NCBI GenBank assembly: GCA_937871815.1
Contig: CALMOJ010000216.1
Span: 1 to 42,427, forward strand
Source: an uncultured Neisseriales bacterium
GTDB lineage: Bacteria; Pseudomonadota; Gammaproteobacteria; Burkholderiales; Aquaspirillaceae
DNA length: 42,427 nt
Direction of reading: 5' to 3'
The position numbers and the translations under genes are program-made. Of the stretch, positions 34,611 through 41,473 are shown piece after piece (positions within the stretch are counted from its first letter, which is position 1; every line of letters starts with the position of its first letter). Below the pieces are notes generated by a model. The model did no database searches. It had not been told where the DNA came from and was given only the letters and a program-made list of their open reading frames with translations.

Positions 34611-34752
34611 AAGCGGTTTACGATCTGCGAGACTCGGGTGATCCTGCGTTGAAATTCGTAAAAACATGCGTGTGGATTCAAATCCAACGGCGTTTTTTTC
34701 CGAATTTCGCCTTGGCAACCCCTGTGCCATTGAGATCGTAAACAGGCTCTAA
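34607..34752 (+). repeat. Dispersed TIR element between convergent genes (copy J)
   Basis: Core 34610-34749 (140 bp), forward oriented and well preserved: TTTACGATCTGCGAGACTCG on the left and TTGAGATCGTAAACAGGCTC on the right. Its left edge provides the TAG stop of the exported protein and its right edge provides, on the minus strand, the TAG stop of apbE. It fills the entire intergenic space. Confidence 0.95.
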
Positions 34753-35660
34753 GCAGGGGGCTGCCCAAACTGGCCATGTGCATCAATCGTCAGATACATC
34801 AACCCCGTCTGCGCCAAGAAGGCCGCCCCATCTGCGGCTTTGAGCATGGCAATCGTGGTGCAACTGCCTGCCGTAATCGACAGCGGGGCCAGCACGCTCA
34901 CCGACTGCCAGTGCGCCACGGGATAGCCGGTGTGCGGGTTGAGAATGTGACAGTACCGCCGTCCCTTATGTTCAAAAAACCGTTCGTAGTCGCCGCTGGT
35001 CGCCAACGCCCCTGAGCTTACGGGGATGGTGGCAATCACCTGCCCCGCCCGACGGGGGTCTTGAATGCCCACCGCCCACGGCGAACCATCGGGCTGCGGG
35101 CCTATCACCCGCATATCGCCGCCCAAATTCACATAGCCTTGGGTCACGCCCACATCCATCAGCACCGCAGCGGCACGGTCGGCGGCGTACTCCTTGCCAA
35201 AGCCGCCGAAGTCCAGCTCCATGCCGGCCTGTGGCAGCCGAATCCGTGCCCCGTCCCGTTCCACCCGCGCCCAGCCAACCAAATCCAGCAAAGGCTTGAG
35301 ACGGCTGGGGCTGGGCACTTTGGCCTGCTTGAAGTTCCACGCCTGCCGCAGCACGCCAGAGGTGATGTCAAATAGCCCATCGCTCATAGCAAACAGCGAA
35401 CCGGCGTAATCCAGCAGCGACACGGTTTCGGCATCGCACAACACCGCACTTTTGCCGCCTGCCGCCGCGTTGATGCGCGACACCACGCTGTCTGGCCGAT
35501 AGCGAGAATAAGCGTGTTCAATCCGCTTCACCTCGGCAATGGCCAAGTCGGCGTAGCGTTGCGCCGCCGCAGCGGTCGGGGCGTTGAGCTTGACCTCGCA
35601 GCGGCTGGCCATCGCTTCAAACGGCGTGTGAAACAGGGTGGCGGGGGCAGCAATCGACAT
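34749..35660 (-). CDS. apbE: FAD:protein FMN transferase (ApbE family)
   Basis: Flavin transferase that attaches FMN from FAD to Ser/Thr of target proteins. The 303-residue product has ASRCEVKL, the Mg/FAD-site GGFGKEYAADRAA, GYVNLGGDMRV, SGDYERFFEHKGRRYCHILNP followed by HTGYP, and the C-terminal SVLAPLSITAGSCTTIAML block. Unlike most ApbE proteins, no lipobox or signal peptide is seen before MSIAAPATLFHTPFEAMASR; no better upstream start is apparent. AAGGG precedes the ATG. It is the last gene of a four-gene minus-strand operon, 11 bp after the DUF3570 gene. The stop codon is set by repeat copy J. Confidence 0.93.
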   Translation of the reverse strand: MSIAAPATLFHTPFEAMASRCEVKLNAPTAAAAQRYADLAIAEVKRIEHAYSRYRPDSVVSRINAAAGGKSAVLCDAETVSLLDYAGSLFAMSDGLFDITSGVLRQAWNFKQAKVPSPSRLKPLLDLVGWARVERDGARIRLPQAGMELDFGGFGKEYAADRAAAVLMDVGVTQGYVNLGGDMRVIGPQPDGSPWAVGIQDPRRAGQVIATIPVSSGALATSGDYERFFEHKGRRYCHILNPHTGYPVAHWQSVSVLAPLSITAGSCTTIAMLKAADGAAFLAQTGLMYLTIDAHGQFGQPPA

Positions 35661-35671
35661 GGTTTCTGCCC

Positions 35672-36829
35672 TTAAAACAGCCGCGATACGCCAAGCTGAA
35701 TCATGCGGGCATCAAACGGCGCGATGTTTTTGCTGCCCGTTCCAAACACCCGCCACGCGCCGTTTTGTTGGTATTGCTCCACCTTCACATCCATCGACCA
35801 GTCTTTATCCAATTGCTTGGCGACTTTTAGCCCATAGGTGAACGCACCAAAAGCCGACAGCCGTTGGTCTTCGGATACGATTCGGCCTGGGGCATAGTCA
35901 GGCGGCAAGACCGGATAGCCCGAGCCATCGGCTTCGACGTAAAACGAGGCCGCACCTTGGGTATGGAAGCGCAGCATCGGGGTCAGCGTCCAGCCCGAAG
36001 CCAAGGGCTGCACGTATTCGGCGGTCAGGGTGTGGGCTTTGACGTGATAGGTGTCGGTGTAATAGCGATAGCTCAGGCGGGTGGTGCCGTCGGTGCTGTC
36101 CAGATGGTGATTCCAGCGGAGCAGCATGGCCGTTTGGTTGCGATTGCGCGGGCGGTTGTCCAGCAGCTTGTAGGGGTCGGAGTAGTAGCCGGTGCCGTGA
36201 ACATAGGTCAGGTTCAGTTGGGCAATGTCGTTAGGCGACAGCACCTGCGTGACCCCCACCATCAGGTCGGTGATGTTTTTGCGCTCGTTAACCACCACTT
36301 TATTGTTTGGGTTGATTTGGTCACTGGTCAGCCCCAGCCCACCGCTAAACGTGGTGTTTTTGTCTTCGCTGGCAAAGCTGCCTTGGGCGGTAATGCCTCG
36401 CGACACATAGTCGGATTCGGTGGAGTAGCTCGCCCCCAGCGCAAATGTGCCCCGTGGCAAATAGCGGGTCACGGTAAAGTCCCCTGCCTTGCGGTGCTCG
36501 TGGATTTTGAATGGGTTGGGTTCGGCGTGGTAAGCCGGTGACGCACCAGACAGCACGTCGGAAACCAGCGAGCCAGCCACTGACCAGTTTTCACCCACAG
36601 GGGCTAAAACGGCCACAGATGGGGCGTGAACCCAGATGCGATTCCAGCCGGGTTGGCTGTCTTTGTAATCAAGGTATTTCAGCGTAATGCTGCCGCGCTC
36701 GGGCTGGGATTCGGCTTGCGCAAGGGGCGCGAGGGGCAGGCATAGGGCGGCGGTCAGCAGCGCCATGCCCAAGGGGGGCAAGGCGGCGGGGGTGGCGGGT
36801 GCAGTAGGGCAAAGGGGGGTCGAAGTCAT
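35672..36829 (-). CDS. DUF3570 family predicted outer-membrane beta-barrel
   Basis: A 385-residue exported protein with a long N-region and hydrophobic signal (LLTAALCLPLAPLAQAES). The mature chain starts RGSITLKYLDYKDSQPGWNRIWVHAP and is built of alternating beta strands with aromatic girdle residues, ending in ARMIQLGVSRLF. The terminal Phe is typical of outer-membrane barrels. Residues 91-97 read DVLSGAS, similar to ApbE flavinylation motifs (D-x-x-[ST]-G-A-[ST]). The family has no established function that I know. It lies between DUF4266 and apbE on the same strand, which suggests a shared redox role. MTSTPLCP was chosen as the start, with AGGACT upstream. Confidence 0.88.
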   Translation of the reverse strand: MTSTPLCPTAPATPAALPPLGMALLTAALCLPLAPLAQAESQPERGSITLKYLDYKDSQPGWNRIWVHAPSVAVLAPVGENWSVAGSLVSDVLSGASPAYHAEPNPFKIHEHRKAGDFTVTRYLPRGTFALGASYSTESDYVSRGITAQGSFASEDKNTTFSGGLGLTSDQINPNNKVVVNERKNITDLMVGVTQVLSPNDIAQLNLTYVHGTGYYSDPYKLLDNRPRNRNQTAMLLRWNHHLDSTDGTTRLSYRYYTDTYHVKAHTLTAEYVQPLASGWTLTPMLRFHTQGAASFYVEADGSGYPVLPPDYAPGRIVSEDQRLSAFGAFTYGLKVAKQLDKDWSMDVKVEQYQQNGAWRVFGTGSKNIAPFDARMIQLGVSRLF

Positions 36830-36885
36830 GGCGTAGTCCTCAGGCAAAAAGTCGGGGGGTGCGGATGGTGCGCGGCGCGGGGCGT

Positions 36886-37128
36886 TTAGTTACAGCCACA
36901 GCCGCCGCCGCCCACCCCTGCGCCGCCTGACGCGCCTTCTTTGCTGCCATAGATGTGCTCGGTAAATTTGGCATCGAGCTTATCGCCCTCAAACGTCATT
37001 TCAGGGCGAGCCAACGTACCTTTTTCCCACGGCTGCACGGGCTTCACCAGCCCGCAGCCGGCCAATACCATCAATGCGCTAACCGCCAGTACCGCGCGGC
37101 TGAGTGTGGTTTTGGTGATAAAGCGCAT
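36886..37128 (-). CDS. DUF4266 lipoprotein with Cys-Gly-Cys tail
   Basis: An 80-residue lipoprotein with lipobox LAGC (Cys25). Mature residues are VKPVQPWEKGTLARPEMTFEG, then KFTEHIYGSKEGASGG and the terminal GVGGGGCGCN with Cys77 and Cys79. This matches the DUF4266 family as I know it, with the PWE-G-LA-P-M core and Gly-rich CGC end. The tail could be a redox thiol pair, a metal site or a modification site; this is not established. It lies 2 bp after the TlpA-like gene, whose end contains its AGGAG ribosome site, so the two are tightly co-expressed. Confidence 0.88.
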   Translation of the reverse strand: MRFITKTTLSRAVLAVSALMVLAGCGLVKPVQPWEKGTLARPEMTFEGDKLDAKFTEHIYGSKEGASGGAGVGGGGCGCN

Positions 37129-37130
37129 GA

Positions 37131-37649
37131 TTATTTCGCTCCTAAAGCTTGTTGTAAGGTCTTTTCAAGCTCGGCGCGTTGGCCATCATGAAAGCCGGTG
37201 TGTTCGGAAATGATTTTGCCGTCTCGCCCGACCAAAAAGCTGGTGGGCATCCCTTTGACCGCATACAGCCGTGGAGTCGTGCCTTTGGGGTCAAACGCCA
37301 CGGTAAATTGGGCAGGCGTTTCGGCTAAGAATTTGCTGGCATCGGCGGGCTTGGCATCGAGGTTAATCCCGACAACCTGCAAGCCTTGGGCGCGATACTT
37401 GGCCTGCATCGCATTCATCCACGGAAACGACTGACGGCAAGGCCCACACCACGAAGCCCAAAAATCGACATACACCACTTTGCCTTGGTACTGGCTGAGT
37501 TTGAACGTGCCATCGGCACTGGGCAGCTCAATGGCGGGCGCGACCGTGCCTTTGTCGAGGGCCAAAGCGGGCTGGCTTAGGCTGAGGGCGGCGGCAAGGA
37601 TGGCACTACGGCACAGCAATCGGCTAAGGGGGGTGAGGCGGAAAGACAT
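37131..37649 (-). CDS. TlpA-like periplasmic thioredoxin
   Basis: A 172-residue exported thioredoxin-fold protein with a signal peptide (RSAILAAALSLSQPALALD). The active site is WCGPC with Cys68 and Cys71, inside VVYVDFWASWCGPCRQSFPW. The cis-proline loop is GMPTSFLVGRDGK, and the AhpC/TSA-like insertion GINLDAKPADASKFLAE is present. Likely a periplasmic thiol reductant or oxidant. It heads the operon with DUF4266, DUF3570 and apbE, so the DUF4266 Cys pair is a natural candidate substrate. AAGGAG precedes MSFRLTPL; the longer frame lacks a ribosome site. Confidence 0.92.
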   Translation of the reverse strand: MSFRLTPLSRLLCRSAILAAALSLSQPALALDKGTVAPAIELPSADGTFKLSQYQGKVVYVDFWASWCGPCRQSFPWMNAMQAKYRAQGLQVVGINLDAKPADASKFLAETPAQFTVAFDPKGTTPRLYAVKGMPTSFLVGRDGKIISEHTGFHDGQRAELEKTLQQALGAK

Positions 37650-37879
37650 CGCAATCTCCTTGGAAACATCAGGGCGTGGATTGTAGGGGGAAGCCACGCG
37701 GCGGGCGATAGCCCTATCACAGGTGTGGAATTTCTGCACCAGTGTGGCGCGGATGGCTTAATCCAGTCTTACCGTTGGGAATTTTTGCGGGGGGAAGGGA
37801 GGCGATGGGCCGTGTTTGTCTGGTTGTCACCCGACCTCACCGTAACCGCCCCTCGCCCCCCCCTCACCGTGTCATGCCA

Positions 37880-38737
37880 TTACGCCAAAGCACTCAAGCG
37901 GGTGCGGGTGTTTTGCGTATCAGCGGCCACAGCGATCGAAACCCCTGCCGTCGCTTGGTCACGGTACTGCTTCATCAAATCCAAGATGCGCTTAAACACC
38001 AAGGTCTCGCTCTCGCTCTTGCTGCTGTCGGTGGCGGTGGTGCTGTCGGTGCTGGTTGCAGCTGTACTGGTCGTCTTGCTCGTACTCGCCGTGCTGCTAG
38101 TGCTTTGGGTCTTTTGGTCATAGGTCATCGCCTCGGTACGCGAGACTTTGCCATCCCCATTGGTGTCCGCTGCGTCAAAATTGCTGGCCATTTTGCTGGT
38201 CAGTGCGGCCAGTTTGCTGTCGGTAGTGGTGCTGGCGACTTGGGTGAGCTGGTCTTTGCTCATCCCTGCATCGTTATCGCCATCACGGTCACTATCACGG
38301 GGCGGCGGTGGCGGCATCCCACCGGCTTGACCCCCTGCCTGTGCCATCCGCATCGCGTTGAACTGACTATCCAACTCTGCCGCCATTTTCTTCAGATTGG
38401 ACGACATTTCATCCTTGGTGACTTTGCCATCGCCGTTGGTATCCAGCGCCGACAGCACTTGGTCTGCACTGACGCTGGTGTTGGTGTTGGTGCTGCTGGC
38501 GGTTAGACCGGTGCCGCTGGTGCTGGTACTGGCCGTGGTCGTGCTGCTGGTGCTCGTTTTGCTGCTAAGACCCTGCAAGGCATTGGCAAAGTCTGCCGTA
38601 TCCAGATAGCCCTTATTTTGGGTATCGAGCTTAGAAAACAGGTTTTCCGCCATCTTGCTGGGGTCAAGGCGCGGGGGGCGTGTTGTCTGGTTGAGGGCGC
38701 TAGCGTAGCTGCTGGTGCTGCCGATGCTCATAGCCAT
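37880..38737 (-). CDS. EF-hand calcium-binding protein with Ser/Thr-rich linkers
   Basis: A 285-residue protein with four EF-hand-like loops: DTQNKGYLDTAD (38-49, degenerate), DTNGDGKVTKDE (99-110, canonical), DSDRDGDNDAGM (148-159, degenerate) and DTNGDGKVSRTE (191-202, canonical). Between them are low-complexity Ser/Thr/Ala stretches (60-90 and 210-245). No signal peptide or membrane helix is visible, so it is cytoplasmic or exported by a non-Sec route. MAMSIGSTSSY was chosen as the start, with AAGGAG upstream. It is divergent from the CpxR-like regulator, with three GTAAA boxes in between. Confidence 0.87.
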   Translation of the reverse strand: MAMSIGSTSSYASALNQTTRPPRLDPSKMAENLFSKLDTQNKGYLDTADFANALQGLSSKTSTSSTTTASTSTSGTGLTASSTNTNTSVSADQVLSALDTNGDGKVTKDEMSSNLKKMAAELDSQFNAMRMAQAGGQAGGMPPPPPRDSDRDGDNDAGMSKDQLTQVASTTTDSKLAALTSKMASNFDAADTNGDGKVSRTEAMTYDQKTQSTSSTASTSKTTSTAATSTDSTTATDSSKSESETLVFKRILDLMKQYRDQATAGVSIAVAADTQNTRTRLSALA

Positions 38738-38885
38738 GGTAAAGCTCCTTCTTTGGGGGCGACCGGTTGGGGTCTTGCTGGCAAAAACCGTCAAGGTGAC
38801 GGGGCAGGGCGACGTGCCCATTTTGGGGTGCTTGTGTGATGCCCAGATTTTTGCATAAGCCCCAGAATCGAAAATCAAAGTCCAT

Positions 38886-38991: not shown

Positions 38992-39681
38992 ATGCCCCAC
39001 CTCTTGCTGGTTGATGACGACACCGAACTTGCCGAGCTGCTGCAAGAATATTTGAGCCAAGAAGGCTTTGAAGTCAGCATGGCGCACGATGGCGAAAGCG
39101 GCATTCGGCTGCTGGATGCCACGCCCTATGCCTTGGCCGTGCTGGACGTGATGATGCCGGGGCTCAGCGGCATCGACGTGTTGCGCCACCTGCGTCGCCA
39201 CAGCGATATGCCGGTGATTATGTTGACCGCCAAGGGCGACGACGTGGACCGGATTGTGGGCTTGGAGCTGGGCGCGGATGACTATGTGCCCAAACCCTGT
39301 AGCCCCAGAGAGCTGGTGGCGCGGATTCGCGCAGTCCTGCGGCGGTTTCAGGCGGGCAAAGCCACGGCCAGCAGCCAAGAGGCGCTGGCCGTGGGGGATG
39401 TGCTGCTGGCCCCCGCCCAGCGCACCGCCCATTGGCGAGGTCAGCCGCTAAATTTGACCAGCACCGAATTCAATATCCTGCTGGTGTTGGTGCGGCAGGC
39501 AGGCCAAGTGGTGAGCAAAGCAGAGCTCTCCGAACAAGCCCTTGGGCGCAGCCTCGCCCGCTTTGACCGGAGCTTGGATGTGCATTTAAGCAGCATCCGG
39601 CAAAAGCTCGGCGAGCACCCCGATGGCCAGCCGTGGATACACACCATCCGAGGGGTGGGCTATCAGTGGCGCGGCGCGTAA
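38992..39681 (+). CDS. cpxR: OmpR-family response regulator, CpxR-like
   Basis: A 229-residue regulator. The receiver domain has the acidic pocket VDDD (8-10), the phosphoacceptor Asp52 (LDVMMPG), Thr in MLTAKG and Lys in VPKPCSP. The winged-helix domain contains LTSTEFNILLVLVRQAG, LDVHLSSIRQKLG and TIRGVGYQW. The receiver is CpxR-like (MPHLLLVDDDTELAELLQEYL, ELGADDYVPKPCSPRELVARI). GTAAA boxes upstream support that assignment. The TAA stop is also the edge of repeat copy K. The kinase gene follows, but only after 373 bp. Confidence 0.9.
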   Translation: MPHLLLVDDDTELAELLQEYLSQEGFEVSMAHDGESGIRLLDATPYALAVLDVMMPGLSGIDVLRHLRRHSDMPVIMLTAKGDDVDRIVGLELGADDYVPKPCSPRELVARIRAVLRRFQAGKATASSQEALAVGDVLLAPAQRTAHWRGQPLNLTSTEFNILLVLVRQAGQVVSKAELSEQALGRSLARFDRSLDVHLSSIRQKLGEHPDGQPWIHTIRGVGYQWRGA

Positions 39682-39713
39682 GAACCTGTTTACGATCTGC
39701 GAGACTCGGGTGA
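39679..39713 (+). repeat. Dispersed TIR element, left-end fragment (copy K)
   Basis: TAAGAACCTGTTTACGATCT followed by GCGAGACTCGGGTGA matches the left arm exactly, then homology ends. Its TAA is the stop codon of the response regulator. Confidence 0.9.
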
Positions 39714-40054
39714 GGTGAACGCGGGTTGTGCTTATTGCGCCACTGGTGGCAGCGGGGTTTGGCCGTGATTCCCCTCTTCATCGGAGGAGGCGTGCCCCGT
39801 CGAGGCGGGGTGGTTGGGTTTTGGTTTGGGCTCTGGCAGCGTCGCCACCAACCACCCCGTCCGGCTGCACCGTCGCCCCCCCCTTCGCCGAAGGGGAATA
39901 ACAGCCCGTCGGCGAAGGGGCGCGGTGTGGTAGGTCGGACTTCAGCCCGATAGCGGAGGGCATCCCACGGCAACGGCGCATTTAGCGTGGCGAACCGCTG
40001 GGGCGGCAGGAATGCGCGGCGCGGCATGAGCCAGCAGGCAAAAAAGGAAGACAC
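39714..40054. other. Structured spacer between response regulator and kinase genes
   Basis: This 341-bp stretch has no credible gene. It holds a perfect 12-bp inverted repeat, CGGGGTGGTTGG (39806-39817) with its complement at 39848-39859. A second block can fold two ways: CCCCTTC (39880-39886) with GAAGGGG (39890-39896), or CCCCTTCGCCGA (39880-39891) with TCGGCGAAGGGG (39909-39920). A partial repeat lies at its left edge, so part of it may be insertion debris. AAGGAAG near 40044-40050 serves the kinase start. Confidence 0.6.
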
Positions 40055-41473
40055 ATGGGACGGTTGTTCTGGAAGTTTTTTATCGCGTTTTGGCTGGCAC
40101 TGTTGCTGACGGCGGGTTTGGCGGGGAGCTTGGTTTGGCTCAGCCACGCCCAAGAAAACGAAACCCATACCGACCCCTTCACCCGAGAGCAGCTGACCAT
40201 TGTCGCCAGTATTTTGCGCACCGCTGGCGGTGACAGCCTGCGCCAGATGCTGCCCAGCTGGACGCACCGTGGCCGCCCCACGCCGATTTTTGTGGTGGAT
40301 GCCCACGGCCAAGAGCTGATGAACCGCCCCCTTCCCCCCGAGAAACTGGCGCAAGCACGCCGCCTTGCCGACCTGAATCAGCCCGAGAGTGCCGCCCGCT
40401 GGTTGCCGACCCGCGACGGCGAAACGTACTTGGTTTTTGTCCATGCCACCGATGCACACCGCCCCCCGTTTGACGGGATTTTTTCGCTAGGCGGGAGGCA
40501 TCAGCCACCGTCTGCGCCGCCGCCCTATCGACCCCATGTGCCGTGGCGGCATATTGTGGCGGGGCTCTTGGTCAGCCTTGGTTTTAGTGTCGTACTGGCA
40601 TGGTATGTGGTTAGCCCCATCCGTCAGCTACGCCAAGCGGTCAAATCCGTGGCAGCGGGGCAGCTGGATACCCGTGTCTCGCCACGGATGGGACGGCGGC
40701 GGGATGAGCTGGGCGAGCTGGGGCAGGACTTTGATGCCATGACCCAGCAGCTCGAGACCCTGATTGGGGCACAACGCCGCCTGCTGCACGATGTCTCGCA
40801 CGAGCTGCGTTCCCCCTTGGCGCGGCTCCACGTTGCCATTGGGCTGATTGCCCAAACACCGGACAAATTGCCCACCATGCTGACCCGATTAGAGCGCGAA
40901 ATTGGGCGGCTCGACACGCTGGTGGGCGAAGTGCTGACCTTGGCACGGCTGGAATCGGGTATGCCGCACGCCCCCGCCGAAGCCTTTGATGGCGTGGCAC
41001 TGTTGGAAGACCTGCTGGCCGATGCCCAGTTTGAAGCCGAAGCGCAGGGGCTTTCCCTCTGCTACCAAGGCGCGACCGAAGCCCCGCTGCATGGTCAACC
41101 TGCCCTGCTGGCGCGGGCTTTTGAAAACGTGATACGCAATGCCATCAAATACAGCCCTGCCCACGGCGTGGTCACCATCGAAAGCCACCTCGACCGCCAC
41201 TGTCGGAGTTGGGTGGTGTCGGTATCGGATACGGGAGACGGCGTACCCGAAGACACCTTGCCACTGATTTTTAGGGCATTTTACCGTGGCAGCCCGCCGC
41301 CGCCCCGCCCTGATGCGCCGCCCTCACCCTCTGCCAGCAACCCCGCTGGCTACGGATTGGGACTGGCGATTGCCGAGCGTGCTTTGGCTACCCACGGCGG
41401 CACGATGCACGCAAAAAACCGCCCAGAAGGCGGTTTGGTGGTGGTGATGCGTGTGCCCTTGGCGGGGCGATGA
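40055..41473 (+). CDS. cpxA: Sensor histidine kinase, CpxA-like
   Basis: A 472-residue membrane kinase. TM1 is at about residues 7-29 (FFIAFWLALLLTAGLAGSLVW). A periplasmic sensor of about 135 residues follows, ending in a Pro-rich stretch. TM2 lies near 167-187 (IVAGLLVSLGFSVVLAWYVV), then a HAMP domain (SPIRQLRQAVKSVAAGQLDTRV). The phosphoacceptor is His249 in HDVSHELRSPLARL. ATP-binding motifs are N (ENVIRNAIKYSP), G1 (VSDTGDGVPE), F and G2 (GYGLGLAIAERAL). It is the evident partner of the CpxR-like regulator, although separated from it by a partial repeat and a structured spacer. Confidence 0.92.
   Translation: MGRLFWKFFIAFWLALLLTAGLAGSLVWLSHAQENETHTDPFTREQLTIVASILRTAGGDSLRQMLPSWTHRGRPTPIFVVDAHGQELMNRPLPPEKLAQARRLADLNQPESAARWLPTRDGETYLVFVHATDAHRPPFDGIFSLGGRHQPPSAPPPYRPHVPWRHIVAGLLVSLGFSVVLAWYVVSPIRQLRQAVKSVAAGQLDTRVSPRMGRRRDELGELGQDFDAMTQQLETLIGAQRRLLHDVSHELRSPLARLHVAIGLIAQTPDKLPTMLTRLEREIGRLDTLVGEVLTLARLESGMPHAPAEAFDGVALLEDLLADAQFEAEAQGLSLCYQGATEAPLHGQPALLARAFENVIRNAIKYSPAHGVVTIESHLDRHCRSWVVSVSDTGDGVPEDTLPLIFRAFYRGSPPPPRPDAPPSPSASNPAGYGLGLAIAERALATHGGTMHAKNRPEGGLVVVMRVPLAGR

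Follow-up and report, generated by a model that had tools for sequence, protein, structure and literature searches.

What could a flavin transferase, a thioredoxin, a small lipoprotein and a predicted outer-membrane barrel do together when they are encoded side by side? The question is raised by a four-gene operon in a 42,427-nucleotide contig from an uncultured Neisseriales bacterium (GenBank assembly GCA_937871815.1, contig CALMOJ010000216.1), the whole of which is referred to here as the window. The genes lie on the minus strand in the order TlpA-like, DUF4266, DUF3570 and ApbE, with spacings of exactly 2, 56 and 11 bp. A first-pass annotation had described this order, strand and spacing, which the coordinates of the open reading frames bear out, and its four family assignments are confirmed by Pfam profile matches. 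The interpretation favored here, with a probability of roughly 0.4, is a complete chain in which electrons pass from DsbD to the TlpA-like protein, the DUF4266 dithiol, a flavin at the cell surface and finally a surface acceptor.

The gene set has been described before, so the earlier label of an uncharacterized system no longer applies. According to the main text of Meheust et al. (2021; PMC8238504), ApbE, DUF3570, a thioredoxin-like protein and DUF4266 form clusters with DsbD in 200-odd cases and without DsbD in 316. The same text pointed out the CXC of DUF4266 and proposed DsbD as the electron donor, so that the hypothesis of a DsbD, thioredoxin and CXC relay was already published. It also reports that co-expression with its own ApbE led to flavinylation of the C. 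luteolum DUF3570 at two [ST]GA[ST] sites, with most of the protein located in the pellet. The window operon is a further copy of this gene set. As with the published "DsbD systems," it combines the same four families, an [ST]GA[ST] motif in DUF3570 and a C-terminal CXC in DUF4266. Like the 316 clusters, it lacks a DsbD gene of its own, DsbD being encoded elsewhere in the genome (contig C207). In contrast, its thioredoxin is TlpA/ResA-like (Redoxin/AhpC-TSA) rather than PF13899, and its DUF3570 has one flavin mononucleotide (FMN) site instead of the two in C. luteolum.

DUF3570 loci were collected by surveying 300 genomes within the order and 398 within the phylum Pseudomonadota, and 63 DUF3570 genes were compared. 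The distribution is patchy (31/300 genomes of the order and 29/398 of the phylum). DUF4266 adjoins DUF3570 in all 63 loci. In 53 of them a TlpA-like gene is found no more than 2.5 kb away, and in 45 ApbE is an immediate neighbor. For the four proteins, pairwise distances are mutually correlated (Mantel r 0.71-0.84), and none of 2000 permutations gave values as high. The adjacency counts and correlations indicate that the four genes are co-conserved in relatives; a lack of such co-conservation was what the first-pass annotation had named as grounds for rejecting its proposal. The linkage is not due to chance. None of five sampled relatives from the genus and family of the window organism carries the operon, which therefore seems to travel or disappear as a whole. 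Searches of viral contigs and, by tblastn, of plasmids gave no match. No additional gene beside the window operon was conserved beyond a few loci; near 12 of 62 loci there is a histidine kinase, a frequency that may be close to chance. The genome from which the window comes possesses a single DUF4266 gene, two ApbE genes and one full canonical DsbD, and DsbD is near the operon in seven loci. In one set of loci (L052, L170, L171, L174 and L176-L180), DUF3570, DUF4266 and TlpA are embedded in a larger conserved cluster without an adjacent signal-less ApbE. This cluster encodes a lipoprotein of about 940 amino acids with CxxCH and an HZS_alpha-type domain, two small outer-membrane barrels and repeat-like proteins of about 1000 amino acids. 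The DUF3570 motif has decayed to SSAS or SNAS in six of these nine loci, and several have an ApbE with a signal peptide about 12-18 kb away.

The presumed flavinylation substrate is DUF3570 (35672..36829, minus strand; Pfam PF12094, 9.7e-66), which carries a Sec signal. Its start is placed at ATG 36829 behind GAGGA, while the mechanically called frame opens at TTG 36847. The sequence DVLSGAS matches the motif D-x-x-[ST]-G-A-[ST], in the form listed by PMC12052999, exactly, with SGAS at 36539..36550 (minus strand) and the predicted FMN-bearing residue at Ser97, numbered from ATG 36829. The Gly and Ala of the site are invariant in an alignment of 16 homologues. A second SGAS occurs 11-19 residues downstream in many homologues and reads SSAS in others; the corresponding stretch is deleted in the window protein, so a single FMN is expected. 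The motif [ST]GA[ST] is present in 43 of the 45 DUF3570s with an adjacent ApbE versus 12 of the 18 without (Fisher p 0.005, a value that is only indicative because the rows are related). The proposal that an envelope protein encoded in the operon is the target of ApbE is thus upheld, since DUF3570 possesses the motif and a homologue was flavinylated experimentally, as described in the main text of PMC8238504. It is very probable that the window DUF3570 is flavinylated. DUF4266, which the first-pass annotation had considered as another possible FMN carrier, was rejected as a flavinylation substrate because the protein lacks an [ST]GA[ST] motif.

Where would such a flavin reside? An AlphaFold2 model of DUF3570 has a predicted local distance difference test score (pLDDT) of 74 and a predicted template modeling score of 0.70, from an alignment of three sequences, as a single-protein contig scan found only two relatives. 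The protein shows a signal peptide, an even number of predicted strands (16) and a C-terminal Phe, the features of an outer-membrane barrel. Comparison of the model by Foldseek and VIA-align returned the barrels PelB, CymA, OmpG and OmpC with Z of 17-20 over 250-270 residues, and no sequence relative was found in the PDB at E<=10. Judging from the model, DUF3570 is almost certainly an outer-membrane beta-barrel. Its orientation was deduced from the termini, both set in the periplasm, and from the asymmetry of loop lengths over the 16 homologues. The seven periplasmic turns have 2-5 residues, with a standard deviation of length of 0 in six and 0.33 in the seventh, while the lengths of extracellular loops 2, 5 and 7 vary with standard deviations of 3.1, 6.5 and 5.3. 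In the model, Ser97 belongs to extracellular loop 2, right where strand 3 ends; the second site of the family would fall in this loop too, and the FMN site is probably extracellular. In a group of loci (L061-L067), DUF3570 is about 900-1000 amino acids long and has an additional C-terminal region in which Met and His are abundant and two Cys lie close together, a possible link to metals.

The enzyme that would attach the flavin is the ApbE-type FAD:protein FMN transferase (FAD, flavin adenine dinucleotide) at 34749..35660 (minus strand; Pfam PF02424, 9.6e-78; 261.8 bits versus a cut-off of 25.6). Its N-terminus runs from MSIAAPAT into the FHTPFEAMAS core and has neither a signal peptide nor a lipobox. 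A convincing hydrophobic signal is absent from all 45 ApbEs adjacent to DUF3570, which start shortly before the FxFxAM core or have a non-hydrophobic upstream stretch; in one genus, four detached copies are just as short. The other ApbEs in these genomes mostly possess a lipobox or a strong hydrophobic segment; a few unrelated signal-less ApbEs also exist (L090, L120-L124). The absence of a signal from the linked enzymes suggests that DUF3570 is flavinylated in the cytosol before export, and we lean toward this location. The flavinylation of a C. luteolum DUF3570 that ended mostly in the pellet, as reported in the main text of PMC8238504, would fit an unfolded substrate. The first-pass annotation was correct in placing the substrate of ApbE within the operon, but simple modification in the periplasm does not agree with the missing signal peptide, which it had overlooked.

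Known ApbE systems offer a comparison. ApbEs that serve NqrC, RnfG and NosR likewise attach FMN by a phosphoester to Ser or Thr of the same motif, but these enzymes, which show KG and AD motifs, act outside the cytosol as secreted lipoproteins, whereas the operon ApbE has no signal and lacks those residues. Both kinds occur in the window's genome, where the second ApbE is a lipoprotein and RnfG and a NosR-like protein are its likely substrates. At locus L059 (contig C136, 167-4660), the gene for this lipoprotein directly follows apparent glutathione-synthesis genes and precedes a diacylglycerol-kinase-like gene. A signal-less ApbE that flavinylates in the cytosol is known from Klebsiella, where it acts on a soluble fumarate reductase (PMC12052999). 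In that case the target remains cytosolic, whereas the one in the window is a predicted outer-membrane barrel made with a signal peptide. Two features look new: an ApbE that seems to act inside the cell before the barrel is exported, and a flavin that probably lies at the outer cell surface. The main text of PMC8238504 mentions neither a cytosolic ApbE, nor barrel topology, nor a change in the active site; DUF3570 is absent from a later paper by the same group (PMC11334425), and no DUF family is named in the ApbE review (PMC12052999).

This change in the active site is an apparent carboxylate swap. The catalytic residues of ApbE are Asp285, Ser241 and His257 in the Vc enzyme, and FmnB has Asp301 (PMC12052999); Asp285 and Asp301 were matched to [AN]D[AG]xxT by our own reading of the alignments. 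Canonical ApbEs combine IAKG with [AN]D[AG]xxT, while the DUF3570 type combines KE with [ACS]Gxx[STA]T. Automatic reading of the motifs gave 41 Glu/Gly and 32 Gly/Asp proteins, two discordant rows being wrong motif matches, and those unresolved rows that were read by eye obeyed the same rule, except for sequences cut by contig ends. In the window enzyme the triad Ser (TSGDY) and His (HILNP) are retained. Aligned to TM1553, FmnB and Treponema Ftp, it has Gly in TAGSCTT (34866..34868, minus strand) where the canonical TADALST has the catalytic Asp, and it has gained Glu in DFGGFGKE (35190..35192, minus strand) where others have IAKG. The same Gly aligns with an Asp that differs between the deposited Treponema Ftp chains 4xdt and 4xdr, and no mention of a role for the lost Asp was found in PMC4767422 under Treponema numbering. 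As far as the aligned motifs tell, the DUF3570-linked ApbEs are a subfamily in which Asp is replaced by Gly and a nearby Gly by Glu. The replacement could also mean that the signal-less enzyme is not the transferase for DUF3570, leaving the barrel unmodified or modified by the secreted lipoprotein ApbE. However, the window enzyme keeps Ser and His and has gained the Glu in step, ApbE is adjacent in 45 of the 63 loci and co-inherited with DUF3570 (Mantel r 0.82), and the motif is kept in 43 of those 45. This alternative is judged very improbable.

The TlpA/ResA-like periplasmic thioredoxin (37131..37649, minus strand; Pfam Redoxin 4.3e-23 and AhpC-TSA 3.2e-22) matches the NCBIfam ResA model at 2.1e-27, which is below that model's cut-off. 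Its start was set at ATG 37649 behind AAGGAG, a longer GTG frame opening at 37739; its signal peptide, read by eye, ends at QPALA before LDKG, and its CGPC redox motif (WASWCGPC) is at 37437..37448 (minus strand). The small lipoprotein DUF4266 (36886..37128, minus strand; Pfam PF14086, 5.5e-23) has the lipobox LAGC, a Gly at +2, as in outer-membrane sorting, and a Gly-rich C-terminal tail that closes with a CGC dithiol at 36892..36900 (minus strand), the protein ending in GGGGCGCN. All 63 homologues terminate in CGCN (49), CGCY (9) or CGCT (5), with GG preceding in nearly all, and Asp at +2 was found in one of the 59 with a recognized lipobox. The strict CGC end and the single Asp at +2 indicate that DUF4266s are lipoproteins of the outer membrane whose flexible tail bears a dithiol. 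In four loci (L071, L073, L075 and L076), DUF4266 is immediately preceded by a gene for a monoheme cytochrome c, and a TlpA-like gene was not detected; these loci belong to one genus-level group or its neighbors. Replacement of the thioredoxin by a cytochrome c favors a role in electron transfer. In the same four loci and L070, where the thioredoxin is missing, ApbE is detached in most genomes and still has the signal-less KE/AG form.

The substitution also bears on the possibility that the TlpA-like protein and DUF4266 are assembly factors, acting in cysteine reduction or barrel insertion and exchanging no electrons with the flavin. Such a role would explain why DUF3570, DUF4266 and TlpA are kept together where both the motif and the adjacent ApbE have been lost (L052, L170, L171, L174, L177 and L180). 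Short-form DUF3570s, however, have few or no cysteines past the signal and so need no disulfide care, and one genus has a cytochrome c instead of the thioredoxin. An assembly function is accordingly judged improbable.

In the favored chain, ApbE would move FMN from FAD to Ser97 of the unfolded DUF3570 precursor in the cytosol, as the signal-less linked enzymes suggest. The flavinylated precursor would pass through Sec and be inserted as a 16-strand barrel, leaving the FMN in extracellular loop 2 or the barrel mouth of the predicted fold. The TlpA-like protein, re-reduced by the single canonical DsbD, may then reduce the CGC of DUF4266, whose Gly-rich tail could serve as a swinging arm that hands electrons to FMN. 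The FMN would then donate them to a metal ion, a quinone or some other acceptor located on the cell surface or close to it. The potentials reported for a CGC tripeptide, -167 mV (PMC3173608), and for a covalent multi-FMN protein, -184 mV (PMC12052999), are close, so exchange between dithiol and FMN is feasible either way. An outward direction is about an even bet. In the opposite direction, the surface FMN would be an oxidase to which the TlpA-like protein and DUF4266 deliver electrons from periplasmic thiols, for thiol oxidation or electron disposal, with oxygen or another oxidant as the acceptor. The close potentials allow this, and a covalent multi-FMN protein does react with oxygen (PMC12052999), but the ResA/TlpA-like nature of the thioredoxin and the frequent presence of DsbD, a source of reductant, in published clusters argue against it. 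We regard an oxidase as quite unlikely.

A metal ion could also be more than the final acceptor. If the CGC of DUF4266 binds or passes copper or iron and is kept reduced by the thioredoxin, a flavin in the barrel mouth might reduce the metal for uptake or detoxification. The Met- and His-rich second region of the 900-amino acid DUF3570s (L061, L063-L067) and the VIT1 iron transporters in 25 of the gene clusters in the main text of PMC8238504 point in this direction. In contrast, neither the window operon nor its close relatives have a recurrent metal transporter or metal regulator as a neighbor, and the genes next to the long DUF3570 forms have no Pfam match. Metal handling is therefore an unlikely, though still sizable, alternative.

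Several points weigh against the favored chain from DsbD to the surface flavin. Electron exchange between flavin and thiols is something that we infer from the operon parts, as was also the case in the main text of PMC8238504. Some DUF3570s have lost the motif, so the flavin is not always needed. The barrel model derives from three sequences, and its pLDDT falls below 50 in loop 2 just past the site. The signal peptides of the ApbEs were judged by hydrophobicity rather than by SignalP. The proposal assumes that Sec can translocate a polypeptide carrying FMN, and a literature search on bulky adducts returned general Sec papers only. Finally, with Gly at the position of the catalytic Asp of characterized enzymes, ApbE activity is not guaranteed. 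A fuller proposal, in which a dedicated cytosolic, carboxylate-swapped ApbE flavinylates the barrel precursor before Sec and a lipoprotein dithiol arm feeds the surface flavin as a heme-free outer-membrane route, is put forward tentatively. Most known outer-membrane electron routes rely on multiheme cytochromes; a flavin barrel with a dithiol feed, if true, would be a heme-free alternative. Cytosolic flavinylation of an exported barrel, if true, would likewise alter the usual view that ApbE acts after secretion.

Two further features lie upstream of the operon in the window. An EF-hand-rich protein (37880-38878, minus strand) has a weak, sub-cut-off match to XopAW-type EF-hand proteins, which probably reflects shared EF hands only. 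Beyond it, on the plus strand and thus opposite to the operon, is a two-component pair of a response regulator and a membrane histidine kinase (38992-41473) that is CpxRA-like by eye.

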